DNA of 64,000 bases from a virus, in the IMG/VR virus record IMGVR_UViG_3300042302_000177, positions 1-64,000 of that record; one strand, given 5' to 3'. Each line of letters begins with the position of its first letter. Position 1 is the stretch's first letter. The notes below the pieces were generated by a model. The model ran no database searches. It was not told the origin of the DNA and was given only the letters and a program-made list of their open reading frames with translations. This document shows, piece by piece, positions 1 to 47,600 of this stretch. The translations under genes were made by a program, and so were the position numbers.

Positions 1-3000
1 TAGCAACCAAATAGTTGGCAACGGCACATTCTTAGGATTTAACAGTTCGTTATCAAGCATTTGGTTGCTAGATGATCCGCAGGTTCGTATTCAAGTTGAT
101 TATGAATTAGGTCCGTATGACGCTAAAACAAATGCACCAACTGAATGGTTTGCCTACAGTCATAGTAGTCACTATGATGACATGGCTGCTGGTATTAAAG
201 GTGTATTCCACAAATATATCAACCGTGCTCTAACACATGCACAGTCCAGTGAAAAGTATGTAGCCCGAGTACTTAAGAAAAGTGTTAAGATTAGTGATGC
301 TCCCGTTACAGACAGCGACTACAGTTTTGCAGTCAGCAGTTCTCAGGGCGGCGGCATGAGCATAAAGTATAAGCCATACATCGATCCTGCTACAGGACAG
401 CATATGGAAAAAGACGGCATTCCTGTTATGCAACTGCTGGATCCAAAAGACCGCGACTATATTCAAAATTTAGACCAACAGTTCCAGATGAACTTCGGTC
501 GTAAGCGTGGTGTTGCTGATCGAAACTTGCAAGGTAGCTTTGTAGGAACACTACAGCTAATGAACAAGTCGTTTGAACCTGAACAAATTGAATCCGTAAC
601 TCGTGCATTCCTAGACATTCTATTTGGACCCGGAGCACAGATGATTACTAAAGATGATCCAGCTCGAGATCGTGATGTTAAGTTTGCCGCAGTAGATGCT
701 ATGTTGCTAGGCGGTGGAGGGGTTAAGCCTCTAAACTTACCAAATGCTCAAGGCCTAAGACAAGAAGCAGTTAAGATGGCAATGGACTATGCAGACCAGT
801 TCAATGCCAAACGAGGAAATGCACTCAGTACCGAAGTAGCAGAAGATGCCGCAGCAGAAGTAGCAGCAAAGCCAGACTATGCTCGCCAAGGTATCAAACA
901 CCTGTACAACAGACTGCCAGATGGTCGTGTAAGTACAGCAGAAATGAAGAATGCAGATTTCTTAGAAATTGCCAAGGCAATTGCAGACAATGGTGGCAAA
1001 CTTGACGGTGTGCCTATCAGTTTGAAAGTAGACGGCGCAGGCATTCGATTCGGTAAAGATCAAAGTGGTCGTCCGTTCTTCATGACCAGCAAAGTGACTA
1101 CTCCATTGTATCAAGATGATGTAGGTTATTTTACCAGCTTTGGTCAAGAAAAAGGTCAGGATGCAGAGACATTGGCAAGAACAAAGAATTATGACAATGC
1201 ACTGGCATTGATTACCGGTAGCAAGTTTATACAATCACTACCTGCAGACACTATTGTACAAGCAGAAATGATGTATAATCCCATGGCACAACAAACTGAC
1301 CAAGGACTAAAATTTGTCAATATTCCTTACGATCCTAAAAAGCTAGGCAAGCAGATGACACTGGTGCCTTTTGTATTCAAACAATACAGCACAGGAGACG
1401 AAAGACCCGATGCTGACAAGATCAAAAAGCGTTTGTTAGCAGCCAGTGATAGCAACATTAAAATTGTCAGTAATAATCTAGAACAAAAAGGCATTAACGT
1501 CAGCAAGATTATTAATCCTATTCTAAACTTAGATCCTAAAGACAAAGCTAATAAGCCTGCGTTCGATCAAGCTAAACAAGCACTAAGCGATGCTATTATT
1601 AATAATCCTAAATTAGCAGGCAAAGATGCGCTAGGCGACAACATGGAAGGTGTTGTTGTTAATATGCCTAACGGTCAAATATTTAAAGTCACTAGTCAGC
1701 AGATGAAGTCGGCTATGGCTGCTAAAATGGCTCAACCGGGTGCAAAACGTCAAGGTCCCCTAAAGACCGCAGTGGTAGCAGTTGGTAGTTTTGCAGGACA
1801 TCTAGGACACGAAGACTTGTTTAACGAAACTGTTAAGAAGGCCAACGAATTAGGCGGTGATCCTTACCTGTTTATTGGCAATGCAGTGGGTGCAGACGAT
1901 CCTATCCCAACAGACGTTAAGGTACAGACATGGCATAAACTATATCCGCAGTATGCTGACAATATCGGTGCTGTAATGCAAGGTGGAAGTTTAATGCAAA
2001 AGGTCAAACACGAATTGATCAGTCCGCAGCCGGGCAAGCCTCCCAAGTATGACAACATTGTTATCATGGTAGGTGAAGATCGTAAAGACATGCCTATCGC
2101 AGGTGCGCTAATGAAGGCTGTTAATAAGTTTCCGGGCTACGAGCATGTTAAGGTCGGTTTGGAAACTATCCCAAGAACACGACCTATAAGTTTTACTAAA
2201 CTACGCGATGTTCTAAAAAATCCCAATGCTACTCCGGAACAGCAGTATGCAGTATGGGCGCAGGGATTTAACGCACAACAATTAGGTAAAGATTGGATAC
2301 TACATCTTATGGACATCTCAAGAAAAGGTATGGGCATTGTTCAACAGCCCGCAGCAGCACCACAACCAGTACCGGTTGCAGAACAAAGATTATTTAACGC
2401 ATTGATTAGAACACAGAAAACGCCAATGTTTGAAAATGCGCCGACCAGTCAAATGGTTAGAGACCTAATCAATCCACAAGGACGCGAAGCACAGAAGTAT
2501 GCTAAGTTCGACAGTGATAGAGAACAGCGCAGAGCCAAGATGGAGAAAGGTGCATTAGCAGATCGTAATAGCCGCAAGTATTCTAGCGAGAAAGACGATT
2601 GGGGCAATTTAAAGAAAGAAGAATTCAATAGTGAATACGACGACGAAGCAGGAATGGCGCAGAGCAATCTACGCACTATGGCTCGTGCTGTTGATGGCTT
2701 GTTAAAAACAATCAAGAACAACGACAACTTACCAGAGTGGGGACAAGAAAAGATTGCCAAGGCCGAGATGATGTTGGTCAGTGTTTGGGACTATTTGCAG
2801 AGTCAGAAAGAACTAGGCATGGACCCTAAAGTTAATGAAAGTCGTGCGTTAGCAGGATTGAAGCAGATTGTTGCAGAGTTGTCCAATGAAAAGTTAGGAC
2901 AGTATAAGAAGGCTGCCGGCGCACAAGCCAGTGCTGCTGACAAGGCAGGCAACACTAAAAAAGCCGACAAGCGTTTCAGTGGCATTGTCAAGGCAACTAA

Positions 3001-4429
3001 GAAACAGTTTGCTAACGATACTAAAGGTGTGGCGGAAGGTGCTCCTATCGTAGTAGCACAGTCTCCTATCGATGTCCGCAATCCTAAAAAGGCTCCGCAG
3101 CCATATAGAAATCAGGGTGACATTGTTCCTCCAACGAAACCACCAAGCACAGAGAAGCGTGGAGTTAAAGGTCGCCCTGGTCAAAGACCTATGCCTGATT
3201 ACAATGTGGCGGAAGACGCTGACCGAGCAGAGGCGCAAGCCGACTACATGGAAGGACAATGCATGGTACTGGCCGTTGCTATAAATCAGCATAATCCAAA
3301 GAGGTATCCAATAGGATATATCTGGGAATACAACATGTCTGCTGGCGCACCGGACATGCAAATGGATGATGATGAGTGGAACGATCTAAGTCCAGAAGAA
3401 CAAGAAGAAATCTCAAACGATATCAGCCGACACTCAGTAGTACATGCGTATGTGCGTGATCAAGAGACTAATGAATACATAGATGCACGTGGTCGTCACA
3501 CCGCCCTACCTAACTTGTGGGGCAGAATGGGCCAGACTCGATTTGAAGAATTTCCGGGTTCGGCTCGTGAGTTGATAGACATTACAGCACACGGAGACTG
3601 GGATGAAGTTGGCGATCAGGTCAATTTCAAACGTGGCCAGCCTGCGTTTGATTCATTGGCAGGACCAGCTGGTGTTAAACGAGCACTGGACTATGCTGTT
3701 AAGTATTTGGGAGTAGTGGGTCCTGAACAGGTTCAAAAGCCTGTGACGCAAGGCGTTGAGCTCGTTGACTTAGATACTGATGTTAATCAAAATATTTACA
3801 CACTCACAGTAAATGGTGAAGAAGTATCATTTACATATTGGGATTCCGAAAATAACTTTGAAAACCCAAACATCAACGATATCTATCAACAGGCAAAAGA
3901 ACAGCTAGGTAAAAAACTATCTCCAAAGAATGTTGAAGAAATTGCTCGTGTGGTATTCAAATCTTTTCAGCAAGGTATGTCGGAAGAGGTCGATGAAGGA
4001 CTTGGATCTAAACTAGCAGGATTAGGACTTGCAGGTGCAATGGCACTAGGGTCCGCTGGAGCAAATGCTCGAGTTACACCTGGCGATGATCCTAATATCA
4101 ATCGTTTAACAGGCAAACCCAATGTAACACAGGTCGCTCCTAGCGATGTTAAACCAGCAGCATCTGCAGGATTTAATAAAGAGTGGTTGCAAAAAGCCGC
4201 TGATCCTAATAGAACTGGTCGTTATATGATCAGTGTTGAAAAGGCACAGGAACTATTAAACAAGATGAATGCCGTTGACGAAGCTAAGAAAAAAGGTGCT
4301 GATGGTAAAGCCTGTTGGAAAAATTATCGCTACAACGGTACTGAGAACGGTAAAGACAAGTGTGTGCCAGTAGGTGAAGATGTTGAAAATATTATGGGCG
4401 CACTGATCGAAAATCTTATTAGAAAATGA
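1..4429 (+). CDS. Large putative virion-internal protein with ligase-like and HxGH nucleotidyltransferase domains (5' partial)
   Basis: The reading frame is open from base 2, so the true start lies upstream; 1475 residues are visible. The middle carries signatures of a covalent nucleotidyltransferase of the ligase/capping type: KVDGAGIR at 1025-1048 (motif I, candidate adenylated lysine at 1025-1027), EGVVV at 1646-1660 (motif IV) and IFKV near 1680 (motif V). Directly after comes an HxGH nucleotidylyltransferase signature, GSFAGHLGHE (HLGH at 1799-1810), with a partner ISFTKLR motif near 2190, as in NMN or cytidylyl transferases. The C-terminal third is low-complexity and charged, with VAE motifs (GVAE 3026-3037, NVAE 3203-3214, variant GMSE near 3970), and ends in a short Cys-containing DGKACW...CVP module. 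The next gene overlaps its stop (ATGA). Domain calls rest on motifs only; the substrate is unknown. The virion location is inferred from the neighbouring genes and the VAE motifs. Confidence 0.75.
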   Translation, partial: SNQIVGNGTFLGFNSSLSSIWLLDDPQVRIQVDYELGPYDAKTNAPTEWFAYSHSSHYDDMAAGIKGVFHKYINRALTHAQSSEKYVARVLKKSVKISDAPVTDSDYSFAVSSSQGGGMSIKYKPYIDPATGQHMEKDGIPVMQLLDPKDRDYIQNLDQQFQMNFGRKRGVADRNLQGSFVGTLQLMNKSFEPEQIESVTRAFLDILFGPGAQMITKDDPARDRDVKFAAVDAMLLGGGGVKPLNLPNAQGLRQEAVKMAMDYADQFNAKRGNALSTEVAEDAAAEVAAKPDYARQGIKHLYNRLPDGRVSTAEMKNADFLEIAKAIADNGGKLDGVPISLKVDGAGIRFGKDQSGRPFFMTSKVTTPLYQDDVGYFTSFGQEKGQDAETLARTKNYDNALALITGSKFIQSLPADTIVQAEMMYNPMAQQTDQGLKFVNIPYDPKKLGKQMTLVPFVFKQYSTGDERPDADKIKKRLLAASDSNIKIVSNNLEQKGINVSKIINPILNLDPKDKANKPAFDQAKQALSDAIINNPKLAGKDALGDNMEGVVVNMPNGQIFKVTSQQMKSAMAAKMAQPGAKRQGPLKTAVVAVGSFAGHLGHEDLFNETVKKANELGGDPYLFIGNAVGADDPIPTDVKVQTWHKLYPQYADNIGAVMQGGSLMQKVKHELISPQPGKPPKYDNIVIMVGEDRKDMPIAGALMKAVNKFPGYEHVKVGLETIPRTRPISFTKLRDVLKNPNATPEQQYAVWAQGFNAQQLGKDWILHLMDISRKGMGIVQQPAAAPQPVPVAEQRLFNALIRTQKTPMFENAPTSQMVRDLINPQGREAQKYAKFDSDREQRRAKMEKGALADRNSRKYSSEKDDWGNLKKEEFNSEYDDEAGMAQSNLRTMARAVDGLLKTIKNNDNLPEWGQEKIAKAEMMLVSVWDYLQSQKELGMDPKVNESRALAGLKQIVAELSNEKLGQYKKAAGAQASAADKAGNTKKADKRFSGIVKATKKQFANDTKGVAEGAPIVVAQSPIDVRNPKKAPQPYRNQGDIVPPTKPPSTEKRGVKGRPGQRPMPDYNVAEDADRAEAQADYMEGQCMVLAVAINQHNPKRYPIGYIWEYNMSAGAPDMQMDDDEWNDLSPEEQEEISNDISRHSVVHAYVRDQETNEYIDARGRHTALPNLWGRMGQTRFEEFPGSARELIDITAHGDWDEVGDQVNFKRGQPAFDSLAGPAGVKRALDYAVKYLGVVGPEQVQKPVTQGVELVDLDTDVNQNIYTLTVNGEEVSFTYWDSENNFENPNINDIYQQAKEQLGKKLSPKNVEEIARVVFKSFQQGMSEEVDEGLGSKLAGLGLAGAMALGSAGANARVTPGDDPNINRLTGKPNVTQVAPSDVKPAASAGFNKEWLQKAADPNRTGRYMISVEKAQELLNKMNAVDEAKKKGADGKACWKNYRYNGTENGKDKCVPVGEDVENIMGALIENLIRK

Positions 4430-4705: not shown

Positions 4706-5071
4706 ATGCGCATCAATGAACTAATCACTGAGATGAAAACAGGTAAAATTACCAAGAGACAGCAACAGGCTACTCGTGGTTTAAATACCTACAAGGACGG
4801 TGAAAGAGCCGACAGCACTTATACATCCTATAGATTAGGCATGGCAGTAGCAGGAGCCAACGGAAAAGACCCCATCGAAATGAATGGTAAGAGTTGGGCG
4901 GGTAAAACTAAAACTACTCATCCTTACAGTAAAGAAGAACAAGAAATGCTTAAACAAGCATACAAGGTAGTTGGTGCAAACTATAAAGATGTAAATAAAG
5001 GTGATATGGAAAGTCGCGAACTGGACAATACATATACCGTAAGCCCTGTAGCAAACTGGATGAAGAAATGA
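4706..5071 (+). CDS. Conserved small phage protein, unknown function
   Basis: A 121-residue protein starting at the ATG at 4706, just after the upstream stop, with a weak GGAAGA purine tract about 15-20 bases before it. A longer in-frame version from 4643 would overlap the previous gene deeply and adds unlikely sequence. The protein is basic and polar, with KITKRQQQATRG near the N-terminus and AHPY/THPYSKEEQEMLKQA-type helical sequence in the second half. I recognise the pattern as a recurrent small hypothetical of T4-like environmental phages but know no function. Its stop overlaps the next start (ATGA). Confidence 0.72.
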   Translation: MRINELITEMKTGKITKRQQQATRGLNTYKDGERADSTYTSYRLGMAVAGANGKDPIEMNGKSWAGKTKTTHPYSKEEQEMLKQAYKVVGANYKDVNKGDMESRELDNTYTVSPVANWMKK

Positions 5072-7761
5072 ACAACGAATTTAAAAAATCAAAAAGCAAT
5101 AACGAAACTCGCTATACATTAGAGTCAATGACAGCAGGTGCAACCGGTTCAGGTAGTGTTGCTACAGCACCGAGCTCGTTAGGCAAAGTCCAAAAGCGCG
5201 GAAATATCTTGGCACAAGAAGCAGGTAAAGACAAAGTTCCTGCAACTACTCCCCGTAATTTTGTTGCTAAGAATGCCAAGTCCAGTGGTGCAGGCGCACA
5301 CAAGGATAAGAAAAAAGAACAAAAGCAGGGCGCTGCAAAACATAAAAAGCCCTATATGGAATCTCTACGCACAAAAATTGATCAACTAAAATCAAAGTTA
5401 GCAGAAGCAGGCATGCCATTTCGTGGAGTAGGTGGTGCATTCAATCGCGGCGATGATGAACGACACGACTTAGATCCAACAGACTGGTATGTTGTTAAAG
5501 ATGGTAAAATGTTCAAAACGTCTGTCTACCCTAATCAAGTACAACTAGCAATAGCCCAAGGTTATAGTCGTACTAGAGATGAGGCCAAAGCAAAAGCAGA
5601 GCAGCAAGGTGTAGAGGAAGGTGGAGCCAGTATGCCAGGCGACCAGTATTTGAGTATCCCAGCGGATCAAACTAAGTTGTCCATTGGACAGCAAATGGCT
5701 CAAGACGGCATTACCTACAGCCCAGATAAAGAAGATGAACTCATCGGATTGATGGCTCAATACATGAAGAAAGCAGGAATGAGTTCAAAACAAATTCGTT
5801 ACTTATTAAGTTACGATGAAGACTATATTCCGGATCAATTAAGTGATTTGCCAAAGCAAGGTGTGGCGGAGGCATTTGGTAGCTCAAGTGTAAACATGCC
5901 AGCTAATGCCGCAGGTACAGATGGGCACCAACAATCAATTGACTTCTATAATCAAGAAGTAGACAACTTGGCCGTTCAAGCAGATCCTGAATTCCAAGAA
6001 TGGATTGAAGCGGCCGAAGAAAAACTAGTAGCCGCAATAAGAAACGGAAAAGATTTTACGCATCTTGCCAAAGTATTAAGCGCACAACAAGTCAAAAAGT
6101 TTGGTGGGAAAACATTAGGTCAACAGTACGGTAGTCAAATGGCAGGTAAAGCAGACGCATACTATACTTCAGAAATCAGAAACATTTTAAACGGTCCAGT
6201 AACTAATGCTGGTAACGAAATGACCAGACGCCACGAGTTGTCCCTACAACTACAAACAATAAGAAGTGGATGGCGCAGAATGTCGCCAGAAGACAAACAA
6301 AACCTAGCCGATCAAGTTGGTTATTCACTTGAAGAACTTGAACATTTTGTAAAAACTGGCCAAGACCCTGAAGAAGGCGATTTGCGTGAATCAGTGAAAC
6401 AAGTAAGACCTGCAACTCCTGATGAATTAAGAACTGGATACACTGCAAGTAAAAGTCATGCTGTGGGTGCTGACGGGAATGTTTATTACTTCATGGACCC
6501 AAAACTAAAACAGGTGGGCCTGTTGCGAAATAAAAAGCAAGGTGTGGCGGAGGCAACAGGCGATGAGAGATTTGACAGCATGATGGGACAGATCACAGGC
6601 GGTGCTGGTGCCAGGCAAGGTGTAGATAATTTGAATAAGTCCCTCACTGCAAGAACAGGCAGCGACCCCGAGACTGCATTGGCCAAATTTGGTCAGGAAT
6701 TTATAAAATGGCTTGAAGATCTTTGCCGTGAGTTTGCCAAGCAAGGTGCAGATAGATTTAATAAATTAAAAAAATTAAGCGAATTCGAAGACGGTGGCGA
6801 AACCATGGCGCACTGGTTGATTGATGTTGCTAAACAGACCAAGACCTCGGGTATTACACTGGCAGACATACAGGAATTTTCTAGCGAGTTTAATACCCAT
6901 GGAATGTGGGCCTGGCAAATGTTCCCTATAGCATGGAGTCAGAACGAATGGCAAGACTATAAAGATCAATGGACTGGTCCCAATGGTTACATAGCCAATC
7001 TGAGACATAGTCCTGAGCAAGGTGTGGCGGAAGGCTCTGGAGCAAACAAAACACATTTAGCAATGGCATATCTAAAAGCAGTAGTCATGGCTCCTATAGG
7101 AACACCAGAAAAAAGAAGAATACTAAATTGGCAACAGATACTATCAAATCAATTTGATATTGAAATGGATCCTGATACCCTTGCTCAAATGCTACCACAA
7201 TTTGATAGTCAGTTGCAGTCGGGTAATCTGGATAAATTACAAAACCGAATGGCTAGTCGCGGCGAACTTGAAATAGGCGAGAGTGAGCAAGGTGTAGCGG
7301 AAGCACCGGAAGATCGCACAAGTTATCAAGTTGCTAAAATTCTATCAGATCGTGGAATCAAATACGATCCTGCACAAGAAAATGAATTGATCAACGCAAT
7401 AGGCATGGTGCTGGTCAAAGAATTAAACATGTCGCCAAAGGAGGCAAGATATTTGATCAGCTATGATGAAGACTTTGTTTCCGACACACTTGGTGAGTTG
7501 AGAAGTATGGAACAGTCAGTATCCGAAGTTGATGTATATATGGAAAGTCTTGCCCACTCATTGCAACAGGTCCTGAGTGAAAAAGCAGTAAGCAAGCAGC
7601 AACAAAAGTTTATGGGCATGGTTCATGCTGCACAAAAAGGTGAAAAGCCTGCCAGTAAAGAAGTTGCCAAAGTAGCCAAGGATATGGGCAAGAAAGATGC
7701 CAAAGACTTTGCATCAACTAAGCACAAAGGTCTTCCTGAAAAGAAGAAATCAAAAAAGTAA
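5068..7761 (+). CDS. QGVAE-punctuated mosaic protein with DUF3008-like C-terminus; putative processed head-internal protein
   Basis: An 897-residue protein starting at the ATGA overlap. Unrelated-looking segments are separated by the motif [KE]QGVAE[AG]: 5857-5871, 6538-6552, 7018-7032 and 7288-7302, with variants QGVEE (5605-5619) and QSVSE (near 7515). Residues about 199-262 and 750-812 are diverged copies of one domain; both contain R-Y-L-[LI]-S-Y-D-E-D. The last ~65 residues (SKQQQKFMGMVHAAQKG...TKHKGLPEKK) match the small DUF3008 family pattern. Valine/isoleucine-x-Glu junctions resemble the cleavage sites of T4-type prohead proteases, so the protein may be a precursor of several packaged internal proteins; this is inference. 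The stop codon sits in a strong -1 frameshift context, which would add 75 residues. Confidence 0.8.
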   Translation: MNNEFKKSKSNNETRYTLESMTAGATGSGSVATAPSSLGKVQKRGNILAQEAGKDKVPATTPRNFVAKNAKSSGAGAHKDKKKEQKQGAAKHKKPYMESLRTKIDQLKSKLAEAGMPFRGVGGAFNRGDDERHDLDPTDWYVVKDGKMFKTSVYPNQVQLAIAQGYSRTRDEAKAKAEQQGVEEGGASMPGDQYLSIPADQTKLSIGQQMAQDGITYSPDKEDELIGLMAQYMKKAGMSSKQIRYLLSYDEDYIPDQLSDLPKQGVAEAFGSSSVNMPANAAGTDGHQQSIDFYNQEVDNLAVQADPEFQEWIEAAEEKLVAAIRNGKDFTHLAKVLSAQQVKKFGGKTLGQQYGSQMAGKADAYYTSEIRNILNGPVTNAGNEMTRRHELSLQLQTIRSGWRRMSPEDKQNLADQVGYSLEELEHFVKTGQDPEEGDLRESVKQVRPATPDELRTGYTASKSHAVGADGNVYYFMDPKLKQVGLLRNKKQGVAEATGDERFDSMMGQITGGAGARQGVDNLNKSLTARTGSDPETALAKFGQEFIKWLEDLCREFAKQGADRFNKLKKLSEFEDGGETMAHWLIDVAKQTKTSGITLADIQEFSSEFNTHGMWAWQMFPIAWSQNEWQDYKDQWTGPNGYIANLRHSPEQGVAEGSGANKTHLAMAYLKAVVMAPIGTPEKRRILNWQQILSNQFDIEMDPDTLAQMLPQFDSQLQSGNLDKLQNRMASRGELEIGESEQGVAEAPEDRTSYQVAKILSDRGIKYDPAQENELINAIGMVLVKELNMSPKEARYLISYDEDFVSDTLGELRSMEQSVSEVDVYMESLAHSLQQVLSEKAVSKQQQKFMGMVHAAQKGEKPASKEVAKVAKDMGKKDAKDFASTKHKGLPEKKKSKK
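5602..7302 (+). repeat. Interspersed 15-21 bp repeat encoding QGVAE
   Basis: The consensus AGCAAGGTGTRGCGGARG recurs in one reading frame at 5602-5619 (diverged), 5854-5874, 6535-6555, 7015-7032 and 7285-7302. A related GGTGTGGCGGAAGGT occurs at 3026-3040 in the upstream gene. The copies at 5854-5874 and 6535-6555 are identical over 21 bases, including wobble positions (GGT GTG GCG GAG). That points to repeat spread or recombination at the DNA level as well as protein-level selection. Each copy marks a boundary between different domains. Confidence 0.8.
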
Positions 7762-18611: not shown

Positions 18612-18887
18612 ATGAACAGTCAAACTAAAGAAGTGATGGACATTCTACAAGAAGAATGTGCTGAAGTAATTCAAGCAGTAAGTAAGATTAGTCGATTCGG
18701 TATTGACAACTTCAAGCCAGGTAAGTCCAAAACTAATCGAGAACACCTTGAAGAAGAATTAGGCGATATGTTAGCAATGATCGATATTATGTTGGAAAAG
18801 AATGTAATATCGTTAGAGCACTTAGAAGTTGCAAAAGCTGCTAAGATTGAAAAATTAAAACAATGGTCTAATATTTTTAATACTTAA
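18612..18887 (+). CDS. mazG: MazG-like nucleotide pyrophosphohydrolase
   Basis: A 91-residue all-alpha NTP pyrophosphohydrolase of the short MazG type: EECAEVIQAVSKISRFG (E-E-x-x-E metal ligands) and EELGDMLAMIDIM (E-x-x-D). Family members hydrolyse NTPs/dNTPs to monophosphates, and in marine phages they are thought to influence nucleotide pools or alarmone levels. It is the last + strand gene before an inverted gene and overlaps that gene's 3' end by 4 bases. Confidence 0.82.
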   Translation: MNSQTKEVMDILQEECAEVIQAVSKISRFGIDNFKPGKSKTNREHLEEELGDMLAMIDIMLEKNVISLEHLEVAKAAKIEKLKQWSNIFNT

Positions 18888-19735
18888 AATTTTGTTATAA
18901 GTTGATCTGCGGACGAAATGCAGGCTTGCATTTTACAAATTTGAGGAGTAGATGGTAGTTCTAAACTACCATCAAATATATTTCCCAAAGGCGAATTATT
19001 ACAATCGCTTCCTCGGACCCAACCTTCTCCACTTATATTAATTCTTTCTATACCTGTATTACATAGTTTGCCTGTAAAGACAGGATTAGACTGCACACTC
19101 TCTGCAGATCTTTCTTCAAAAGTTTTGTTAACACTGACATGATTGTTTAAAACCCATTCTTCCCCAAACAAATATATCAACTGGTCTTTGGTATAGTTTA
19201 ATCTTCCTAGATAGTTGCTAGCCTGTACATATAATAATTCTTTTCCAACTTTAATTCCTAGTGAAGATTCGAGCTCATCTATGCGGTTAAGATCTTCATC
19301 AAAAAAATCAGGTCGAATAGGAACACCTAAATGAAATGGTTTATATTTTTTTTGAAATGCTTTTACAATAAATTTAATAAGATTTAAATTTTGCCAAGAG
19401 TGGCATGTAAGATTTAAAAAATCTACATGAGGTTCTATAGCCCACCAATCCATCCAAAGTTTTCCTCCGGCAGTATGTAGTGTAGTATTTCCGCCATTTT
19501 CTTTACATAGTTTTAACAGTGCAGGGAAATCAAAAAATTCCAACGGATCGCCACCATTAAATATCCAGTCAATATGTCTTCCTAATTTTTTATCATAATG
19601 GTCTATAAATGTGTTTGCTACTGCTAGATATTCATCTACGTGTCTAGGTTTGTCACCTCCCCAAAATGTTTTTGGACAATATTCGCAGCCGCCTGTGCAA
19701 TAATTATGTATCTGCCAGATTACTACTGTTTTCAT
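18884..19735 (-). CDS. Radical SAM protein with SPASM-like C-terminus
   Basis: A 283-residue enzyme with the 4Fe-4S site Cys13-x3-Cys17-x2-Cys20 (NYCTGGCEYCPKTFWGG), a G-G-D-P strand (IFNGGDPLEF) for SAM binding, and a cysteine-rich C-terminus (LCNTGI, GSDCNN, LGNIFDG, ICKMQAC) typical of SPASM/twitch auxiliary-cluster domains. Such enzymes modify peptides, proteins or small molecules. It is the only minus-strand gene within the + strand block, convergent with mazG and divergent from queE, and more AT-rich by eye than its neighbours, suggesting recent acquisition. ATG at 19733-19735 follows AAAGG. No precursor-peptide gene is obvious beside it. Confidence 0.8.
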   Translation of the reverse strand: MKTVVIWQIHNYCTGGCEYCPKTFWGGDKPRHVDEYLAVANTFIDHYDKKLGRHIDWIFNGGDPLEFFDFPALLKLCKENGGNTTLHTAGGKLWMDWWAIEPHVDFLNLTCHSWQNLNLIKFIVKAFQKKYKPFHLGVPIRPDFFDEDLNRIDELESSLGIKVGKELLYVQASNYLGRLNYTKDQLIYLFGEEWVLNNHVSVNKTFEERSAESVQSNPVFTGKLCNTGIERINISGEGWVRGSDCNNSPLGNIFDGSLELPSTPQICKMQACISSADQLITKF

Positions 19736-19811: not shown

Positions 19812-20660
19812 ATGAGCAAAATTAAAGTATCCGAACTATTCTATTCAATCCAAGGAGAAGGGCGTTATATGGGCGTCCCTTCTGTATTCTTACGTACATA
19901 TGGCTGCAACTTTACCTGTCAAGGTTTTGGTATGCCACGCGGTGAACTGAGCGCAGAAGCAGATAAAATTGCAGAACGTGCTGTTGAATTTGCAGAATAC
20001 AAATCACTTCCGCTAGTTAGCACAGGCTGCGACAGTTATGCAAGTTGGCATCCTGCATTTAAAGACCTAAGCCCGATGATCGAAACTGAAGGTCTTGCTA
20101 AGGCTGTAGTTGATACATTGCCGTTTAAAGAATGGCGTGACGAACATCTTGTTATCACGGGTGGTGAGCCGTTGTTGGGGTGGCAAAAGGCCTATCCAGA
20201 TTTGCTGAATCAACCTTGCATGAAAGGTCTTAAAGAAATTACTTTTGAAACTAACGGTACAATGCGTTTAACTGAAAAGTTTAAAGAATATCTAACAGAC
20301 TGGACATTCGGCGGAGATGATAGAGAGATTACATTTAGCGTAAGTGCTAAACTGCCGGCAAGCGGCGAGCCCTGGAAAGATGCTATTAAACCCAAAGTTG
20401 TTTGCGACTATGAGAATTATGGAACAGCATATTTGAAGTTTGTTGTAGAAACAGAACAAGATATCGAAGATGCACTAAGGGCTACAGAAGAATTCCGCGC
20501 TGAAGGATTTACTGGCCATGTATATTTGATGCCGGTAGGTGGAGTAGAGAGTGTTTACGCATTAAATAATAAAACAGTAGCAATAGCCGCTATGAAAAAC
20601 GGACTCCGTTATAGCGATAGATTGCAAGTTCCATTGTTTAAGAACGAATGGGGTACTTGA
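19812..20660 (+). CDS. queE: 7-carboxy-7-deazaguanine synthase (QueE), atypical cysteine spacing
   Basis: A 282-residue radical SAM enzyme converting carboxytetrahydropterin to 7-carboxy-7-deazaguanine on the route to preQ0/queuosine-type bases. It has the QueE opening ELFYSIQGEGRYMGVPSVFL, LRTYGCNFTCQG (Cys32, Cys36), CDSYASW (Cys73) and ITGGEPLLGWQ. The third cluster cysteine lies 36 residues after the second, instead of two, because of an inserted segment (about 38-72). The matching C-D-S context of ordinary QueE shows it is the same cysteine. Product use by the DpdA-like protein at 13.5 kb is likely. It has its own consensus promoter. Confidence 0.88.
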   Translation: MSKIKVSELFYSIQGEGRYMGVPSVFLRTYGCNFTCQGFGMPRGELSAEADKIAERAVEFAEYKSLPLVSTGCDSYASWHPAFKDLSPMIETEGLAKAVVDTLPFKEWRDEHLVITGGEPLLGWQKAYPDLLNQPCMKGLKEITFETNGTMRLTEKFKEYLTDWTFGGDDREITFSVSAKLPASGEPWKDAIKPKVVCDYENYGTAYLKFVVETEQDIEDALRATEEFRAEGFTGHVYLMPVGGVESVYALNNKTVAIAAMKNGLRYSDRLQVPLFKNEWGT

Positions 20661-35690: not shown

Positions 35691-38600
35691 TTAATATCCC
35701 TCTATCGGATTGTTATTGTCGTCTGTCAATTCAAAATTATTATTGTCTGTTAGAGTAGGATCTCCACCATAATAATAATAATCAGGTAATTCTGTTGTTT
35801 TCTGTTGTATAAACATAGCCTGCGGTGTTACAGCAGTCAATAACGAAGATTTAATTACCCACTCATTAGCAGATACTTCTTCAATCGGTTGCCAGAACTG
35901 ACCAGTTCTTTGTTCAATTTCTAATCTCACTCCGGAAACAAATCCCTCAATATTTAATTTTAATTCATGATTGTTAGTCAACGAATTATAAACTACAGTA
36001 AATTCAGAATCCAGTGTTACTAAACTTGTTGAAGTCGTATCATAGGCTCTTCTAGAATCATGTACCAAGGTACTTGTTTTGCGAAGTGTCCTTCCACCGT
36101 ACTTAATAGTTACCTGATTAGTTGCATCAGTCGATGTAGAAAGAGTAATTCCGTCACACACAAACTGGTATGGGCCCACGTCAGTGGAATAACTGGAAGT
36201 GCTAATAACAAATGTGTATGTGTTGAACGAGTTAGTTACAGTACTTAATACTCGAGCATTTGTTGTGCTGGTAGTAATATGATATTGCTTCTTAATTACA
36301 TCACTGTAGGGAACTTGTTGTTGTGTACTTTGATCCATTAGTTTAGTTCCAACTTCAGAAAACAATGCGGGTGCTGTGCCGTGAGTGCTTCTTCGTAAAT
36401 TGCTTAATGTATTACTGGCTTTTTCAAAGAACTCAATACGTTCGCTGTCAACAAATACTACTCCTGGAATATTTCTAATAGGATTAGGAGGAATCAATCT
36501 GCTAGAATCTTCAACGTGAATTTCAGTATCAGTGAGCGTTAACTCTTTAGTTAAACGTGTACTGTAAAAATCTGATAATCGAGTATATGATGTTCTATCA
36601 AAAATATCTTTAAAAATTCTATAACCTAAAGTAACGTTATTTCTTAATGGTGAATTAATAGAGGTAATCATAATGTCGTTTGACGTATTGACAAATATCC
36701 ATTCACTAAGTTGAATAGTTCGTTGATCTGGAAGAAGTCCAAAGTCATATCCAGGTATTAACGGTGCTCCGTCTACATAGACCCAGACATACTCTGCACT
36801 AATAACAGGTAAGCTAAGAGTAAATCTACGCATAGAATTACCTGAGAAACGTTCTGTTCTAATCAACATGCCATCATGGTCTGTAAACGTAGTTACTTTT
36901 ACAGATCCGGATGTAAGAGGAGTTGATAAAATAACCGTGTTACCAGACACTATATAATCATAATCAATAAGGCTTTCGATTGCAATTGCATCACCGTTTA
37001 CAAGTAATCCGGTAGGGAAAGTAATTGTACTGTTACTTACGGATAGCGTATAATCAAAGCCCGATCTTAGTAAGAAGCCATTTAAGTAAACATGCACTGT
37101 TTCAATAGAATATGTACCTGATGGTCTAGGCTTATTGTCAATATTGAATGTAAGTTGAGTTCCATCAAATTTATAATAAGTCACATCAGGAGGAGAAAGT
37201 CTTCTTCTGCCTGCTCCAGCCAATGCTTCATATTCTACTAATACCTGAGCACTAATCGGTTCTATATTAGCAATAGGCTTTGTTAAATTCAACACAGTAG
37301 TAGTTGTAGTAATGTTGAAATATTCTGTCCAAACTCCGTTAAACTCAGGATAGTTAGTTTCAAAAAACCATGCTTGAATCACGTTAGTACCAGCAGGAAT
37401 ATTGTAAACTGTAACTGCCGCTCTATTATTTTCAATACCAGTAGGAGATACCATATAACCATATGATGAAGTTGATAGTGTTTCAAAAATTTGAGTACCA
37501 TTAACTGTTACATAAACAGAACGAACATCGTCTATACTAGCTAAACTAGGAATTAATACAGATGATTGATCACTAACTGATACTAGGTTACTATCTAACA
37601 GATAATCGCCTCCCATGGTCATTAATGTATAACCTGCTCTACCAGTTGTTGTCTGAGGAGCAATGTACAAAGTTCGATCATAGATAAAGAACTGATTTCT
37701 TGCTGTAAAGTTATACGGTTCTTTATTAGGATCAAAACTTCCTTGTCCTGCATACTGCCAGTTTCCGCCCTCCGAAGTACTATAGAATACATGACTGGTA
37801 TTATTTTGTATAGAAGTATACGGCACCTGAACGGCATTAGCGCCATTTTGATTAGAAATACCTGTTATAAATCCGCCATTTGGAACAGAAGATGAAGCGT
37901 TTAAAGGATCATACTCGCGCCATGTGTTTTCATAAATCATTTCTACATACTGATTCACTCCATCAGAATATAATCCGAGTTCATACTGGTACGCAGGTAA
38001 CACTCCAGGTTCATCTCTTTTCTGGTAATGACTACCTTGAAAGCGCAATCTCCAGTAATTAAATTGAGTAGTTGTTCCTGAAATCGTACCGGTATCGAAC
38101 CATAGCCCAGGAAGTTGTCCGTTTTCTAATGGTTGACCGAATATTCCTATTGCCTGCCATAAGTCGCAGAACATCACCATAATTGATGGATTTTCAAGAG
38201 CGTCGATATTTAAAGGCGTGTACTCAGTATCTCCTCCGCCAAACGTTACATAACCATTTGTGCCAACGTACACTTCAGTGTACACTGTACCAAACATGTT
38301 CCAATTAAACCCTAGCGAATAGGGTCCAGTAAATGTATCGTCACCGGCAGAGGCTCCGATAGGTGCCCCAGAAACGCCGATTGGCGTAGCAAGAGAAGAG
38401 CTAAAATAAGGACCTATTGTACCAGGATTAGGTGGAGTATCTAATCTATCAAAAATTAATCCTTTATATTCTACCTGAACACCTACGGATTCTGTAACAG
38501 GATGTGGCAATGTAGTAACAGAAACTCTACCGCTGACTACAGGAACAGCGCCTGAAATTACTAGAGGAGATGAGTTATTTTCTTGTGTATAGACATTAAT

Positions 38601-41600
38601 ACTAACACTATCAAATGTCTGTCCTTTAACATGCTCTTCGGGAGCATACCCTAATTGAGCATTTAAGAAGCCGCTGCCATTGACTGTTAAGTCTGTAGGA
38701 TTTACTCCTAGTGCTCCAACAAAGTTGCCAGCACTGTCCCAGGATCCTGCTGTAAGTTCTGTGTCAACTCCGTTAACATTAAAATTATCTTTCCAAAATT
38801 CTAATTTTGGATATCCGTAAATATCAACATCAATATGATGACCACTTAGGCCTAGCCCACGAATAGTAAGAGCAAGTGTTCCGCTAGAAGTAGCAGTTGT
38901 TTCAACATATTCAGCCAATGAACTTGTTTGCAACGGCAAAGTAGAATAATCTAAGTAAACAGATGATGTTGAAACATCTTGAATAGAAATTAAAGTATCA
39001 TAATAAACTGTTGTAGTGTTTATGATATCATCAGCAAAAGAATATATCTTATAAGTTGATGTAACTTCGTAGTCTCTTAACATTGATGGAATACGAACTG
39101 TTGTGCCTGCTGGAGCAGAACGCACAGTCGATGTCGACAACACACTAGACCAGTGTGTGCCCGTTCCGATTGCAGTAAATCTATCTGTACCAACTCCAGT
39201 TACTTGATATCTACCGTCGAAGCCAGTAAGTGTTCCGCCTTCGCCTCCATTAATTCCCCAAATTTCTGCGTAGTCTCCTACTCTAATATCGCCGCCGAAA
39301 TCTTCAACTGTGTAGAATACTAAAGTTCCTCTGGTAGTTAGGCTGTCAGACCAAACACGTTTAATTTGAAATTCATAATTACTAACTTCAATCGAGTTGG
39401 CGCCAGTGTTAACAGAAACAACTACAGTATCTGTCCTTAGATAATTTAAGGCAGTGTTCGTTAAGATAATTTTCTGCCCTGGAGAAATTCCTTCAGTGGT
39501 ACTTAATACTAGTGTACCTGTATTGTAAAGCGCATCTGCTACTAATTTTGCAGAAGCATAGTAATCAGTTAAGTCAGACCATGCAGAATTGTTGTCGTAT
39601 GCTCCGTGGCCCCAAGGTGGAGAATAATCAAATCTTAAACCTTGCAGTTGAGTCTCACCAAATTCTGCACCAGACATTAATAGAGGCAATTCTAGTCCAG
39701 GCATGCTGTCTGTAGGTTCGTAATAATTATGAATTCTATCAACTGCTGTATAAAGGTTGATATTTTTATTATATGTAATTTTAAATATCTGTCCTTCACC
39801 AGGAACATAGTTTAAAAATACAAACCTAGAATATTTCTTAGTGTAATTATTATATGTTTCTGTATAATATTCAATAGTATAGTCAGTAGCAAGCACCAAC
39901 TTACCATCTACTAATGGAGTAATATTAGACTTGTTAGGTTCAGCTAACCAGCTAAGTACAAACTTATTTGCATCTCCTGAACAGACGAACGTTTCAGTTA
40001 CTGTAGTATCACCTAATTCGTAGCCTGTACCAACTCTGTCAAATTTAATACCAACAGTGTTTTTTCTAATTGTGTCATTACCCATTACAACTGATACAGT
40101 TGCAGTTGATGTCACGTACTGGCCGCCGCCAGTAATTGTAACTAGAGGAGGAGTAACATATCCAGAACCAGGATGAGTAACTAGAACTTTATATAGTTCA
40201 CCGTTTCTAATATAGGCTTCTGCTTTAGCGCCGACGCCGCTATCTCCTAGAGCAGTAGTAATTTGGACGTTAGGTCGTTGAGTGTACCCTGCACCTTTAT
40301 TTCCAACTTCAATAGATTTAACATAATATTTGTAGTTGTCATTCCAAGACTTTCTAGGATACTCATCTAGCAATGTATTACCTAACTGCACAACTTCAAA
40401 CTTTCCAGTAGAAGAGTTATAATAAGAAGGCAAATCAAAATCTGTCAAATATACAGATCCTTGGTCAACGTTATTATTATAGATAGATGTGTAAGATCTA
40501 ATCTTTGTTCTATAAGGTTTTACTTCTTTAATATAATCTTCAAAGTATTGTTCATTTTCCAATTGATAAACAGATCTTTGATCTAAACTGCCTATGTTGT
40601 TTTTGACATTAATGAAAGAAGTTTTAAATGCCCAATCGAGCAACTTCTGTTCAGTTAGTGCATATTTGACTGCCTTAAAGAATAATAGATTCCAGTTGAT
40701 TTTTAAATCTCTAACAAAGATATCGTCTTTAAGTGCTGTTAAAATATAGAATAGCTCTAGATCAGGAATTTGATCATACAGAGTTTCCTCTAATGTTGCA
40801 ACATCATAGGCATAGTTACTGTCCGAGTAGTTCCAAATAGTGTCCAGAATTTGAACAGTTCCATTTTGTCTATAAATGATATCGTAAGACGTTGAAAAAT
40901 CACCTATTTCAGTGTCGGTTAACTTTTCTAAAATAATGTAATTACCATCTCCGGCATTTTTAATTTTTACGTAATCACCAGGTACTGTGTCATTTAGTGT
41001 TGCTACTTCATATGTATCATTAACAACATATTTGTAATCTTTAAATCCGTCATAAGTAGACTTTACCCAATCAGCATATTTCCAGTACAATGGAGTATTA
41101 TATGTTTGAGTTTTAATTCTTAACCATGTTTTGTACAAATAGTCGTAGATATGTTTTGTCCAGCGATTTCCGTATTCAGTGTTAACCTGTACAATCACTG
41201 TATGTGGTCTGACTACTACTACAGGACTTTCTTCAACGTAATTTGATCCAGGTGCAGTAACAACAGCATTAATTACTCGACCATTTACATCAATTTCTGT
41301 TTCAATAACTGCACCGATACCTGTTGTAGCGTTAACATTAACTTTTGGAGGTAATGCATATCCGAAGCCAGGATCTGTAACTACTGCACTAATTACTTTG
41401 CCGTTCAAAGTGAAACATTCAATGTATGCTTGTTTAAAAGTTGATGTATCGACCTCAGTTAACTCTTCTAGATCTTCAACAATTAAATCATACTCCCTAT
41501 CTAATGCATCTGGAATTTCTTCCTTACGTTCTAAATTAGAAAAAGAATAATTACCTGTAATTCTACTGTCAATTAATACAGAATTAGCAAACTCAACAAT

Positions 41601-44600
41601 ATTTCTTAATGCTTGCAGTCTGTCTTTGAACAGAGTCTGTTGAGGTCTAATTCCAATTCCGTATTTGTTTCTATATGACAAATTGATGTCGGGTACTAGA
41701 TTTCCTAATGCATCACGACCCAATAGACTGTCAAATAGTTTTTTATTCAACATTGTATTTGGCATACTTGATGCTGAACCTTCTTCTAACAACAACCATT
41801 CTGTATGTCTAGGGATAGAATTTTTTATTTCATCTGTAGAAATATTTGCATTAATATAATTTCCTATTAGCATAGGTTGAATATTTGCAAAAGCAACCGA
41901 GTCAGAAGATAAAATTTCAGCAAATTTCAAACCATTCGATACTGGATCCGCAATCAAACTCGAAACTTGATATGCACTGATTCTTCTATTTTTAGCATCA
42001 GGAATTAATACTTTATTCTTAACCCAGAAGAAAAAGACATTTTCAAATGAATTCGTTACAGTGTTCCAAACTTGCTTAACAGAAACAATACTGTTATCAG
42101 GATACTTAGGCTGACCACTGATACCATTAGTTAATCCTTCCGAAGTATCTGCTTGTGATGCCCATTCGGTAGGTAGTAAATTAGATTTGACCCATTCATA
42201 AACATCAATAGTTGCACCCGGGAATAGTTTACCCCAGTTATTTTTTCTAAAGATGTCATCGCCCTGTTCGTACCATACATACTTAGCGGTACTTAGATCC
42301 CACCACAATTCGCCAACGTGTTCGTCAATCCAGTTAGTTTCAGAATCGTTGATTGTACCAATAGTACCTATAGAATATGTTGCAGGATCGGAAGCAGACT
42401 TATATTTTAACTCTTGTTCGGCAATTCCTGCAATTTTTCCTTTTAAAGGATCAATTACATCTAAGTATTCAATTACTTCTTCATTTACAGAATCAATTAA
42501 AACAATTCTCTTTACAGTATCAATTTCAACTAGGTCTGGTTGCTCTCTCAGTAACGACCAGCTATTTTTTGTGTTGTCAATCTTATTGAACTGAAAGAAT
42601 GTAGAGCCGTCTGCTTCAGATGCAGAAACATACCACGGGGCTCCTACATAAACTGCATCATTTGTTGCAACAACAGATGTTCCATAACGACTACCTTCAA
42701 TAAAGTCAGCATCGTTTAATTCTTCAGCCTGAATAAAATAATCACCCAGGTTGTTATAAACATAGACTGCACCAGCATCTGAAATAGGAGATATAAAACG
42801 TGTAGTTCCCTGGTCAAATGTAGTTTCACCAAATCGAGTTCCTTCATCAAATCCGTAAATCTTAGATCTATTTTTTCCTAAAGAACTAACTGTTAATACT
42901 GTTTCGTTCTTGCTCAATGAAATAGCCTGACCAAATTTAAGATCGTTAGTAAGAACAGGATTGTCAATAACTTGACGAAGTATATATGTACCTGTAGATG
43001 TTAAGTTAGTAGCCGTGTAAACTGCAACTTTACCAAAACCTTCACCGATCAGTTTTGTATTAACTGACGAGATGAACATAAATTTGCCAGAAGCAGATAC
43101 GTATACATCGTCGCCAAATATATCAGTTGTTCCAAACGGTGAAACAATAGTTTGCTTCCAGTTTAAACTATTGTCAAAAATTTGAACAATACCCGAAGTG
43201 GAAGATGTAGTGTAGCCAGGAGCACTGATAGCAATAAATTTGCCAGCATAATCTCCTGCAATCTTATGTCCCCATTGCATTTGAGAATTTTGTGTAATTC
43301 CTTCAGGTCTTAAAGATATGCCATCTTCTAAGTTAGAAGATAAGTGTTGTGTAATGCTAACAAGATTTGTTGCAGAAGTAGTTGTACTTAGGTAATAGGC
43401 ATATACATGACCAGTTCCTGTATTGTTCACGCCATCCCCTGGAGCACTAACAAGAAGTGTTGAAGAACTAGTAGAAACAACTTGATTTAAGTATATAGAA
43501 TGACCAAATCTAGCATAGCTAGAAGTTGAATAAGTTACTGTGTCGTTGTAGTTAGGTCTTACTAAAACTTTCTGTGTTATTTCTTCATTAACTAAAGGTC
43601 TCTTTGAACTAATCTTTACAAGACCTTCAGAAACAAAAGACTTTGCATATCCACTGCCTGTGCTGAATAATATAGCACTTGTACCAGTAGAACGTACATT
43701 TGTTGCTTCAGGAGCTCCTGTAAAAATTAATTCTTTACTGTTGTCATAATTTAAAGAATAACCAAATCCAGTAGATAAAGATACGTCACAGTATATTTTA
43801 TCGTTACTGTTCATTATATATTCAAACTGCTTGTCTAATGTTAGTCTGTTCTTTTCTAATACCGAAACTCGGCCAGTACTGTCGTAACTAGGAAAATCCC
43901 ATGTAGGAGCAGAAACGATAACCAACGGAATATCATCCGAAGCATAGATTGAGAAACCTAACTGCTGTGCAATAGGAGATGCAGATGAATTAATTCCTAT
44001 ACCTGTATCATAATTTTTTATCTTTTGATAGACTGCCCACTTGTCAGGTGCATTGTCAATCCATATTTTTTCACCTGTTTTAAGTTTACGTAGGTCAGGA
44101 ACATTTTTTAATTCTTCAAAATTCTGATAACGAACATCATCAAATTTAAACAATGCGCCGAACGCTAATAAGTCATCATTAACAATAGTTGTTAAACCAG
44201 ATGCAACAGTAAATTGATTTAGTTCTGGAATTTCAGTAACAATGTAGACACCATTCACTTGATCATTAAATTTAACAACTGAAACAATATCACCCACTGC
44301 AAGACTGTGATGTATGTCAGTAGTAAAGGTAATAGCGGTTGCTGGCGCACTTACATACACTCCAGAAACTTTTGCAGTTTGTCTAGAATATCTATAAACA
44401 TCCCAGTCACCATTCTCTAAGAACCCCATCCAAATAGTGTCGCCTTCTTGAATAGAAGAATTGTTTGCAATGTCTAATAAACTATTTTTATTATATGCTG
44501 TAGATGTAACGTCATCTAATCTAACATATCCAACAGTGGTTAAATCAATATTTGTATCTTCATAGCCTGTGCTATTGTATACTTTAAATGTCTGTGCAGG

Positions 44601-47600
44601 ATTGTATCCCGATGGAGAAATTAATAAATTTGTAGAAGATGTATAGTTAATTAAATTGCTGGCATTTGAAGGCATCTCAGAAATAAATTTAACAACATAA
44701 GGATTTTCAATTGCTGTACCTTCTTCTAGTTTAAATTCAATTTCTTTATATGTTTCAAATCCGCCAAAATGTCCTACTCTAAAAGCCCAATCTTCATTAA
44801 AAGAAACGTCACCTTTACGTGCAAAGGTTCCTGCTTTTACAATTTTATCAATTGCATTTCGAGTACCTTTTTCACGAATAAATCCTTGATAGAACTTGTA
44901 TTGTGCTGTGGCATTGGTAAAGATATTGTTTAGATACGTGCGAGGAGTATAACCAATTAAATGTTGTGCTAACTGTTGTTGCCCGTAATCAAAGTTATCA
45001 ATATCTAAGCTATAGAAATCTTCAAACTGATTGATCTTGTAGTCAAAATTAGGCAACAGATCAGGTGCAGGTTTTTTAGATAGTTTAACCCATTTGTTAA
45101 AATCAAAAGTTTCATCACCGTTTATACGTGTCGACGATTCATAATAGACACCGTTATATCTAACAACCTTTCCAGGAAGATAAATGCCATATGCTTTCCA
45201 GTCTGAAATTTCAACAGAGTCATATATAAAACCTGGACTGAACAAATCTCCATTCCAATTAGCAGTTCTAAAACCAGTAATCTTAACCCTACGTTGACGA
45301 TATCCAGATTCAATGTCATAGATAGTATCGTTGAAGATAGTGGTGTTATTAAACACAATTGCATGTTCTTTCTGAACAGAATTTAGTGTTGCAAAGAAAA
45401 TACCTTCTTCTGTATTAAGTGTATTAATTGTACAAACACCATCTTGCCTACTAAGATTAAAATTACTAATAGGAAAAGATTTCCCATCTGCTTTTAACAA
45501 ACTGTACTCGTAATTTCCTGAGGCAATATTATCTACAATAGAGTCTACAAATTTATATCTTAATGTGTTAGCAAAAGGACTTAGAGTAATTAAATTTCCA
45601 TCGGCCCAGTTTTGTGTGGTCCAAAATAAGAATTCTTTTCCTGTAAATTGCCAGTCTAAAATTTCTTTTAGATCAGTACTGTATTGATCAAATAAGAATC
45701 CTTGTTTTTCTAAGTATGCTCCGTAACCTACAATTAAGTCATATACTTCTTGAATAGTGTTATACTCAGTCCCATAAGGAACTTCAGTTACTGCTGTTTC
45801 AAATTTTGTTGCCTGTTGTGCTGTTGCGCCCCCGGTCATAGGCAACGAAGACATCTGTTGAAAATAAGTTTCATCAAATGTACTGGTAGCAACGTGTCCT
45901 ATTTTAACTCGATAAAAACGACTATTGTATCGAACAATTTGTCCTTGCTTATAATATCGAGATGTGTTAGTTTCAACTGATGTAAGATCTGTTTCGCTTA
46001 TTCCTGTGGTTCCATTATTAGTAACAGAAGTCCATTCTGTAAACGGAGAAGACACTCCGCCTACTGTAACTGCTCCCGAAGTTGCAGTCTTAATGGGTTT
46101 TAAAATTTCAAAATACGGATTACTTCTGTCATAGCCCTTGACAACAAATTTGCCATTTGACTTTTGAACAATGATTCCCGAGATATTAGCAGACTTAACA
46201 GGATTACTAATATTTAAAATAAATGCACAGTCTTCAGGGGGTAAAACTGCACCCTGGCTTGTTGACACAGGGTCAATACTGTCAATGATAATTTGCAATT
46301 TTTCTTTGCTTGCAAATCCGCCTAATTTGTGAAATAGGTTGAAATCTAAGTAAGAAAGATCTTGCTGAAACTTAGCTACATATCCTAAATCAGTTTGTTT
46401 TCCTTTTTCAATTATTAACGAACCAACTCCAGAAATTTGATAATCACCTTCAACTAATAATTTTTTAGGATTTAAGTATAAGTCGCCCGCATAGACTAAT
46501 TGATTAGATTGATTAAATGTTGTTCTGCTGACATCATACATAGACGATGTATAGTTACAAGGTTCTAACAATGCCGCCATTGCATTAACTGCAAACGGCC
46601 AATAACTACTGCGATGCCAGGCGGTTTCTGCAGGATTGCGGTCGCCAAATGCCCATGTAAATTTTTTATCAGAGTAAGCATTCTCTGAAACTAAAAACTG
46701 ATCAGGTGCTTTTAAATTACCACTGGTATCAACAGGGATGATTGTTAATAACTGCGAACGAGCATACTCTGTTTTGTATGTACCAGTTCCTCTTACATAA
46801 CCATTCTTCAAATCGGTCCACATGAGTGTATTTGAAGAAGTATACGGCGCAGGCCCATACTCAATTGCCCACCAAGTAGGTTTAGTTGTAAATCCTAACA
46901 TTTCCCATGGGTGGCTATGAGGGCGGTCTGTGTCATAGAAATATTGATATATTCCTCTCCAATATCCAGGAACAGTGTTAAAAAAGACAGAGTCTATGCT
47001 ACCTTTATAATTCCAGGTAAACGAATTGTTTTCATCAAATGTAGAATTTGCAGAAACATCGACATTATACATTCCTGCCCAACGCATATAATCTTTTCTT
47101 AAAATTCTATTTGCATCATCTAACGTATACTTAGAATTTCTAAATGCACCGGGTATTGTAGATTTTACATCAAATATTTCAGTATTATAGATTACTTTAA
47201 TGTTATTATAAACACGCTTTTCAAATTCAAGAATAATTTCATCTCGATAATCGCCATACGCCTGCATTACACTGCCGTCGTGACCCCTAATCATAGAAAC
47301 ATTGCCGCTAGTATAAGAAGTATCTATATATAATTCAGGTTCATATTTTGGATACAGTCCTAGCTTAGACGGTGTTGGTGGTACAAAACAACCCAGTGTA
47401 TCGAGATAAGTTACAATCTTAATCACATCGTCTTTAACTAAAGAAGAAATTACAGTAACGGTACCGTCGATACTATCTATCTCGTAATCTTTTCCATAGA
47501 TTAATTGTACATCGTTTAGATATATTAAAATAGATTTAAAACTTAGTATTGTTGGATCAAATTCTATCCCTAATGGATACACATAACTTGGAATAATTCC

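Follow-up and report, generated by a model that had tools for sequence, protein, structure and literature searches.

The 64,000-nucleotide stretch analysed here (positions 1-64000 of the 167,113-bp IMG/VR virus record IMGVR_UViG_3300042302_000177, hereafter the window) begins inside a large gene that joins several nucleotidyltransferase-like enzymes in one predicted polypeptide chain. The source is a freshwater T4-like virus of bacteria, its assignment as a T4-like phage being based on its polymerase, portal, prohead protease, major head protein and terminase genes. The open reading frame (ORF) 2..4429(+) therefore has no 5' end within the window. The full-length gene was found in two IMG/VR contigs, L001 and L002, which were 100% identical to the window ORF across the 443 amino acids (aa) compared and encode a protein of ~1606 aa with the N-terminus MQLFDLIRNKKPLLE|GGN (given also as MQLFDLIRNKKPLLEGGN; the bar marks the predicted cut). 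An alignment-guided scan of viral contigs identified relatives in 138 IMG/VR stretches, whereas a scan of bacterial genomes gave no copy of the fused protein and thus pointed to no host. For comparison, an alignment (A2) of 49 non-redundant homologues was used, extending from GGN through the end of the HxGH module, with identities to the query as low as about 41%. Sequence searches of the Protein Data Bank with the window ORF and with profiles gave only a weak match to FAD synthetase. As set out below, it is well supported by sequence conservation that the predicted product joins three types of nucleotidyltransferase, Pol-beta-like, ligase-type and HxGH. Our overall reading, with a probability of roughly 0.5, is that this product is a head-internal polyprotein of a T4-like phage that would be cleaved, injected and act on nucleic-acid ends, with RNA (tRNA) end repair favoured.

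The ligase-type module covers nucleotides (nt) 884..1723 (+). The initial annotation, which described a fusion of a ligase-type and an HxGH-type enzyme, had placed the motifs of both at nt 1025-2212, and both sets were confirmed there and were invariant in the 49 homologues. In ligase order the module carries motif I (KVDGAGIR, nt 1025), motif Ia (TSK), motif III (QAEMM, nt 1259), motif IV (EGVVV, nt 1646) and motif V (IFKV, nt 1679). Counting from GGN, residues K458, D460, G461, R465, T478, S479, E538, E665, G666 and K678 were invariant, so the loss of motif residues in homologues that would have spoken against the annotation was not seen. The same motif order (I K-x-D-G, III acidic, IV [DE]G-x-V, V Lys) was found in WEM34319, a stand-alone ligase-type protein of Xanthomonas phage X1, which aligns with the module along its full length (hhalign E 3e-16) and begins near the module start. 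An AlphaFold model of 894 residues had a mean predicted local distance difference test (pLDDT) score of 89. Foldseek searches with the full model matched this module to an archaeal RNA ligase (5d1o) and Naegleria RNA ligase (5cou/6vt0) with probability 1.0 and E 0.001-0.005; DNA ligase I and AsfvLIG were also among the matches, with probability about 0.9. By motifs and by modelled fold alike, the module belongs to the covalent nucleotidyltransferase superfamily of ligases and capping enzymes. No ligase family profile (Pfam DNA_ligase_A_M, RNA_ligase, DNA_ligase_aden) matched. An NAD-dependent ligase with recycling of nicotinamide mononucleotide was considered and set aside, there being no DNA_ligase_aden match.

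The HxGH nucleotidylyltransferase module, together with a C-terminal helical extension, follows at nt 1763..2335 (+) and carries the signatures GSFAGHLGHE (nt 1784) and ISFTKLR (nt 2186). Its G-S-F-x-G-H-x-G-H loop was invariant in 49/49 homologues; compared with the canonical GxFxPxHxGH, it has one residue fewer and no P. Of the Pfam families, none scored above its cut-off and FAD_syn alone appeared below. Foldseek matched the modelled module to PPAT (3pxu, TM(target) 0.71), NadD and FAD synthetase. The HxGH and [SFT]xxLR signatures on a predicted Rossmann-like fold place it in the HxGH superfamily, and conservation, model and fold matches thus bear out both fold assignments of the initial annotation.

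A third enzyme type had been missed by that annotation. The window contains only the C-terminal part of a Pol-beta-type module (nt 2..805 (+)), whose catalytic GS and DID fall outside the window edge and whose third acidic strand, VDYEL, lies at nt 95. In the first 385 residues of the full-length protein the pattern GS...(about 25)...GDIDT...QhDhE was found with its catalytic positions invariant in 49/49 homologues (G69, S70, D96, D98, D149 and E151 in alignment A3). It corresponds to the signature hG[GS]...DhD...h[DE]h by which Pol-beta superfamily nucleotidyltransferases are recognised. The AlphaFold model of the module had a pLDDT of 94.2 and a predicted template modelling score of 0.89, and its leading Foldseek matches were AsfvPolX, Pol mu, Pol beta, GLD-2, CutA, TUTases and OAS3; nearly all top matches were members of the Pol-beta superfamily, all of them weak (best E 0.11). 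The module in L001 matched phrog_19290 (E 1.9e-25), and stand-alone copies occur in Campylobacter and Vibrio phages. No Pol-beta Pfam family, the RlaP profile included, matched any of the 49 members at E <= 0.1.

The chain also carries signs of head targeting and proteolytic processing. In T4, gp21 cleaves after L/I-X-E (PMC9026906), and the internal proteins bear a short N-terminal capsid-targeting sequence (PMC9958956, PMC5694885). Every complete homologue of the window gene has an N-terminal prefix ending in [L/I/V]-x-E|GGN, and Campylobacter phage CP220 gp100 has one too (MKLSELMFILE|GGN). Among the 73 loci with a readable start, which were not de-duplicated, P1 was E without exception, P3 was L or I in 67 and V in the other 6, and P2 varied freely. 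In Xanthomonas phage X1 and Vibrio phage phiKT1024 the prefix is missing and the protein opens with M-GGN; the prefix is therefore an optional module, and the homology boundary coincides with the predicted cut. A 120-aa module, encoded by a separate upstream gene in L002, is fused via [L/I]ME|GGN in L008, L075 and L077.

A second junction of this kind lies between the Pol-beta and ligase modules, in linker 1 (nt 806..883 (+)), which is predicted to be disordered (pLDDT < 50 at L001 residues 390-405) and in the window copy reads V-A-E|D (STEVAED, nt 827). The strict pattern [L/I]-x-E|[A/G/S] was present in linker 1 of 36/49 homologues, whereas 2000 rounds of linker shuffling gave 3.2 on average and never more than 9. 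With V allowed at P3 the count rose to 46/49 (shuffle mean 7.4), and A followed the cut in 42 of these 46. Per 1000 aa, the density of strict sites was 23.8 in linker 1 and 0.16, 0.98 and 0.11 in the three folded cores. These densities were taken from the strict pattern only, because the loose [LIV]xE[AGSNDQR] also matches the folded HxGH core (VGED). Linker 2, between the ligase and HxGH modules (nt 1724..1762 (+)), had no cleavage-motif match in any of the 49 homologues, and the likely products are therefore a Pol-beta protein and a ligase-HxGH enzyme. Thus the chain is probably a precursor that is cut between the Pol-beta and ligase modules, with a lasting ligase-HxGH fusion; of the two-enzyme fusion first proposed, the pair itself stands and the single uncut protein probably does not. 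A suitable protease, a gp21-type prohead protease, is encoded in the same genome (G000 73272-73901; phrog_207, E 2.7e-59), and the major head protein contains near its N-terminus RRYLGE|SATAG, which may be its own maturation site.

Relatives of the ligase-HxGH part are found in cyanophages. The cyanophage protein T4-GC190 ('cytitidyltransferase'/NMNAT-like) is homologous to the HxGH module (hhalign E 4e-12), and its N-terminus, MKKFSAFL[TSK]E|A, is a T4-like targeting sequence. It has been known since 2010 only as a 'putative citidylyltransferase', present in 16/16 cyanophages compared, and its product has been identified in S-SM1 virions (PMC3037559), as have relatives in those of S-SCSM1 (PMC9602691) and S-CREM2 (PMC10665884). 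Directly upstream of T4-GC190 lies T4-GC71 (Pfam DUF6267), which contains ligase motifs in order: KxDG(A/S), FFV..K, QxD, EGxV and KxVxR. The two genes are found together in at least 201 phage records, and in S-PM2 (LN828717, S-PM2d138, 591 aa) DUF6267 and HxGH form one ORF; in the old S-PM2 record AJ630128 a frameshift splits this fusion into two genes (L102/L105). Foldseek against viral models returned 'cytidyltransferase-like' proteins of ~600 aa from S-PM2 and uncultured phages, aligned over ~640 columns that correspond to ligase plus HxGH. The hhalign comparison of DUF6267 with the window ligase module was not significant, even with six divergent members, and the link between them is held at the level of motif order and fold (Foldseek of the fused S-PM2 protein). 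The cyanophage proteins differ from the window protein in that no fused Pol-beta module was seen in them and their HxGH loop is the canonical GRFNPPTxGH. In Stenotrophomonas phage DLP_6 both genes begin with a targeting-like prefix (MMKFTQFLAE|S and MKNIKDILE|A).

In Xanthomonas phage X1, Pol-beta, an unknown protein, ligase and HxGH are encoded by four consecutive genes (WEM34317-WEM34320). X1 thus resembles the window gene in having the three types of protein encoded side by side and differs from it in its separate genes, the missing capsid-targeting prefix and the extra gene between Pol-beta and ligase. The gene at this place in X1, and likewise the one upstream of DUF6267 in cyanophages, displays a DhhV...VS[LC]K pattern that recalls PD-(D/E)XK nucleases (L096 2585-3787, L097 1047-2777, L098 1594-2766, L103 1640-2974, L086 6987-7991); the S-SCSM1 annotation lists it as a virion protein.

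Three further known systems come close. The T4 internal head proteins (Alt, IPI-IPIII) have an L/I-x-E prefix, are processed by gp21 and include nonessential enzymes thought to be injected (PMC9958956, PMC9026906). They are, however, single proteins cut near their termini, whereas here one precursor would hold three enzyme folds with internal L/I-x-E sites. In the systems of RlaP with Rnl-type RNA ligase, a phage Pol-beta nucleotidyltransferase is likewise associated with a ligase-type enzyme (PMC7824862), but no Pol-beta or RNA ligase Pfam family matched here, and those systems are not described as head-packaged HxGH precursors. Polyvalent proteins are large, combine several effector enzymes and are thought to be injected with the DNA (PMC5512222); the tails of the present family similarly include ParB_N and extra Pol-beta modules. 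In contrast to them, cleavage by a protease into separate products is predicted here, and the consulted part of that source contains no ligase-type/HxGH pair.

Based on these data we propose that the short N-terminal targeting sequence would carry the polyprotein into the prohead core, where the gp21-type protease would cut after [L/I/V]-x-E, removing the prefix and exposing GGN. The same cleavage would set the Pol-beta-like enzyme apart from both the ligase-HxGH protein and the variable tail modules. Injected together with the DNA, the released enzymes would work on nucleic-acid ends as soon as infection begins: the Pol-beta module may add nucleotides to RNA (tRNA) ends, the ligase-type module may adenylate or seal ends and the HxGH module may transfer NMP (nucleoside monophosphate) to a phosphate group. 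Targeting to the head and injection are probable, cleavage, packaging and injection being suggested by the motifs, the gp21 homologue and the relatives. The view of the initial annotation that the protein is virion-associated and injected like T4 Alt accordingly gains from the targeting-like prefix, the L/I-x-E sites, the gp21 homologue and published cyanophage virion proteomics. As to the substrate, RNA-end repair is favoured as a guess, because RlaP Pol-beta enzymes work beside phage RNA ligases (PMC7824862) and RNA ligases are the better fold match. The fullest form of the proposal, a head-carried end-repair kit that is made as one precursor, cut by the capsid protease and injected to mend RNA or DNA ends broken by host defences before phage gene expression, with cyanophages carrying its ligase/HxGH part, is tentative and in our estimate somewhat doubtful.

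Several observations weigh against the proposal of an injected end-repair polyprotein. The linker 1 site of the window copy itself, V-A-E|D in place of L/I-x-E|A, is a weaker site, and no site was found in linker 1 of 3/49 homologues (L035, L050, L053). Virion detection covers relatives only (T4-GC190 and homologues). Fold support for the Pol-beta module is coherent but weak (Foldseek E about 0.1). In the ligase-type module, motif V is KVTS and the second basic residue of the classic K-x-K/R is missing, and no OB-fold follows motif V, after which a linker of ~13 residues leads into the HxGH module; full strand sealing is uncertain for both of these reasons. The X1 HxGH protein is of the canonical NMNAT-like type and is not detectably homologous to the fused one. 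A role of HxGH enzymes in RNA repair had no precedent in the literature searched, which consisted of open-access papers. Finally, no tRNA genes were found, and no polynucleotide kinase turned up in the gene inventory, in which it was not searched for specifically.

Among the alternatives, the one that survives best keeps the packaging and cleavage and changes the substrate: the injected enzymes would mend damaged DNA, Pol-beta filling gaps and the ligase-type enzyme sealing nicks, as is thought for PolX and ligase of African swine fever virus. The best Pol-beta matches, AsfvPolX, Pol mu and Pol beta, fit this idea, as do DNA ligase I and AsfvLIG among the ligase-module matches. Moreover, no other recognisable DNA or RNA ligase was found in the phage record, the test for T4 Rnl1 having no positive control. 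We nevertheless regard DNA repair as unlikely: RNA ligases outrank DNA ligases in Foldseek probability, the OB-fold is lacking and the HxGH module would have no obvious role.

It is rather unlikely, too, that the HxGH module makes NAD (or a CoA- or FAD-type dinucleotide) early in infection, countering NAD-depleting defences or feeding ADP-ribosyltransferases, while the ligase-type module uses or recycles the product. NAD handling had been among the functions suggested initially; the HxGH fold is near NadD, PPAT and FAD synthetase, and in the papers on cyanophage virion proteomes the relatives are termed NMNAT-like, with NAD synthesis as the proposed function (PMC9602691, PMC10665884). None of the features expected of NMNAT, NadM or NadR (canonical loop, family profile, NadV partner) was found here: the loop is short and without its P, and no Pfam family exceeded the cut-off. 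Every NadM-containing phage surveyed also carries NadV (PMC9503650), whereas neither NadV nor NAPRTase was detectable in the phage record, itself possibly a fragment, and this makes NAD salvage the less favoured reading. It would also leave the fixed pairing with a ligase-type enzyme unexplained.

Alternatively, these might be ordinary cytoplasmic late or middle proteins whose prefix is no targeting signal and which are never packaged. The virion proteomics known from relatives and not from this phage would allow this, mass spectrometry of virions can reflect co-purification of non-structural proteins according to the S-CREM2 authors (PMC10665884), and no T4-type late promoter TATAAATA was found upstream of the gene, the occurrence of this motif being no commoner than chance. 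This explanation is quite improbable: two independent junctions show the same constraint at P3 and P1 while P2 varies freely, the predicted cut falls exactly on the homology boundary, and both the encoded gp21 homologue and several virion proteomes of cyanophages speak against it. Catalytically dead modules serving as head-internal structural or DNA-binding bodies, to which the deviant motif V and HxGH loop and the lack of an OB-fold might point, are very improbable given the invariance of the catalytic K, D, E, H and R positions in the 49 divergent sequences.

The remainder of the gene (nt 2336..4426 (+)) encodes a variable tail of low-complexity linkers with a C-terminal ACWKNYRYNGTENGKDKCVPVGEDVENIM module and candidate sites VNE|S (nt 2831), VAE|G (nt 3029), VDE|G (nt 3989) and VDE|A (nt 4274). 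QGVAE tail linkers, which may be gp21 sites although they have V at P3, were enriched (19 against 3.3 expected). The homologue tails after the HxGH module are exchangeable and include Amidoligase_2, NTP_transf_2, DUF6934, ParB_N and Phage_lysozyme+LysM (e.g. L004, L006, L071, L083). A stand-alone Pol-beta-like protein encoded at G000 153840-154532 (+) (L094 9840-10532; phrog_36119) resembles the module fused in the L004 and L006 tails. In the tails of L012 and L050 a YLYHATGG stretch resembles ADP-ribosyltransferases at the level of the motif only. A module with CWKGY...GTK.K...V.NCVPVSEDVE..M..LI was found at the C-terminus of 17 homologues (e.g. L001, L010, L071), and stretches resembling it, CWKGYK..GTK.KGG..V.NCV, are present in internal-protein clusters of cyanophages (L098, L100).

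Downstream of this gene, a multi-module ORF of 897 aa (nt 5068..7761 (+)) has repeated QGV[AE]E|[GA] linkers between small modules (PPIase-like, DUF7230, DUF3008). Its C-terminal DUF3008 module was 75% identical over 56 aa (E 1e-22) to the cyanophage S-SCSM1 virion protein SSCSM1_93, and this ORF probably encodes a second head polyprotein. A crude N-terminal pattern for other targeted proteins matched 15/151 ORFs in G000; it was too loose and was not used. Elsewhere in the window, two radical-SAM genes stand back to back at 18884-19735 (-) and 19812-20660 (+), one of them QueE-like (phrog_2076), and a 4732-aa ORF lies at 35691-49889 (-) within a tail/baseplate-like region.

Head-packaged enzymes, polyvalent injected proteins and the ligase and HxGH families are already known. 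In the literature covered, no description was found of a single precursor that combines three nucleotidyltransferase folds and has prohead-protease sites where its modules meet, nor any prior recognition that T4-GC190 is paired with a ligase-type enzyme. The present analysis links T4-GC190 to a ligase-type partner (DUF6267) and, in freshwater relatives, to a Pol-beta nucleotidyltransferase, by which an unexplained head protein becomes a testable enzyme pair. The role of capsid proteases may go beyond the removal of scaffolds and propeptides and extend to freeing individual injected enzymes from polyproteins; with L/I-x-E sites read as marks of module boundaries, this rule could reveal other injected effectors from sequence alone. 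If true, the end-repair kit would explain the core virion protein T4-GC190.
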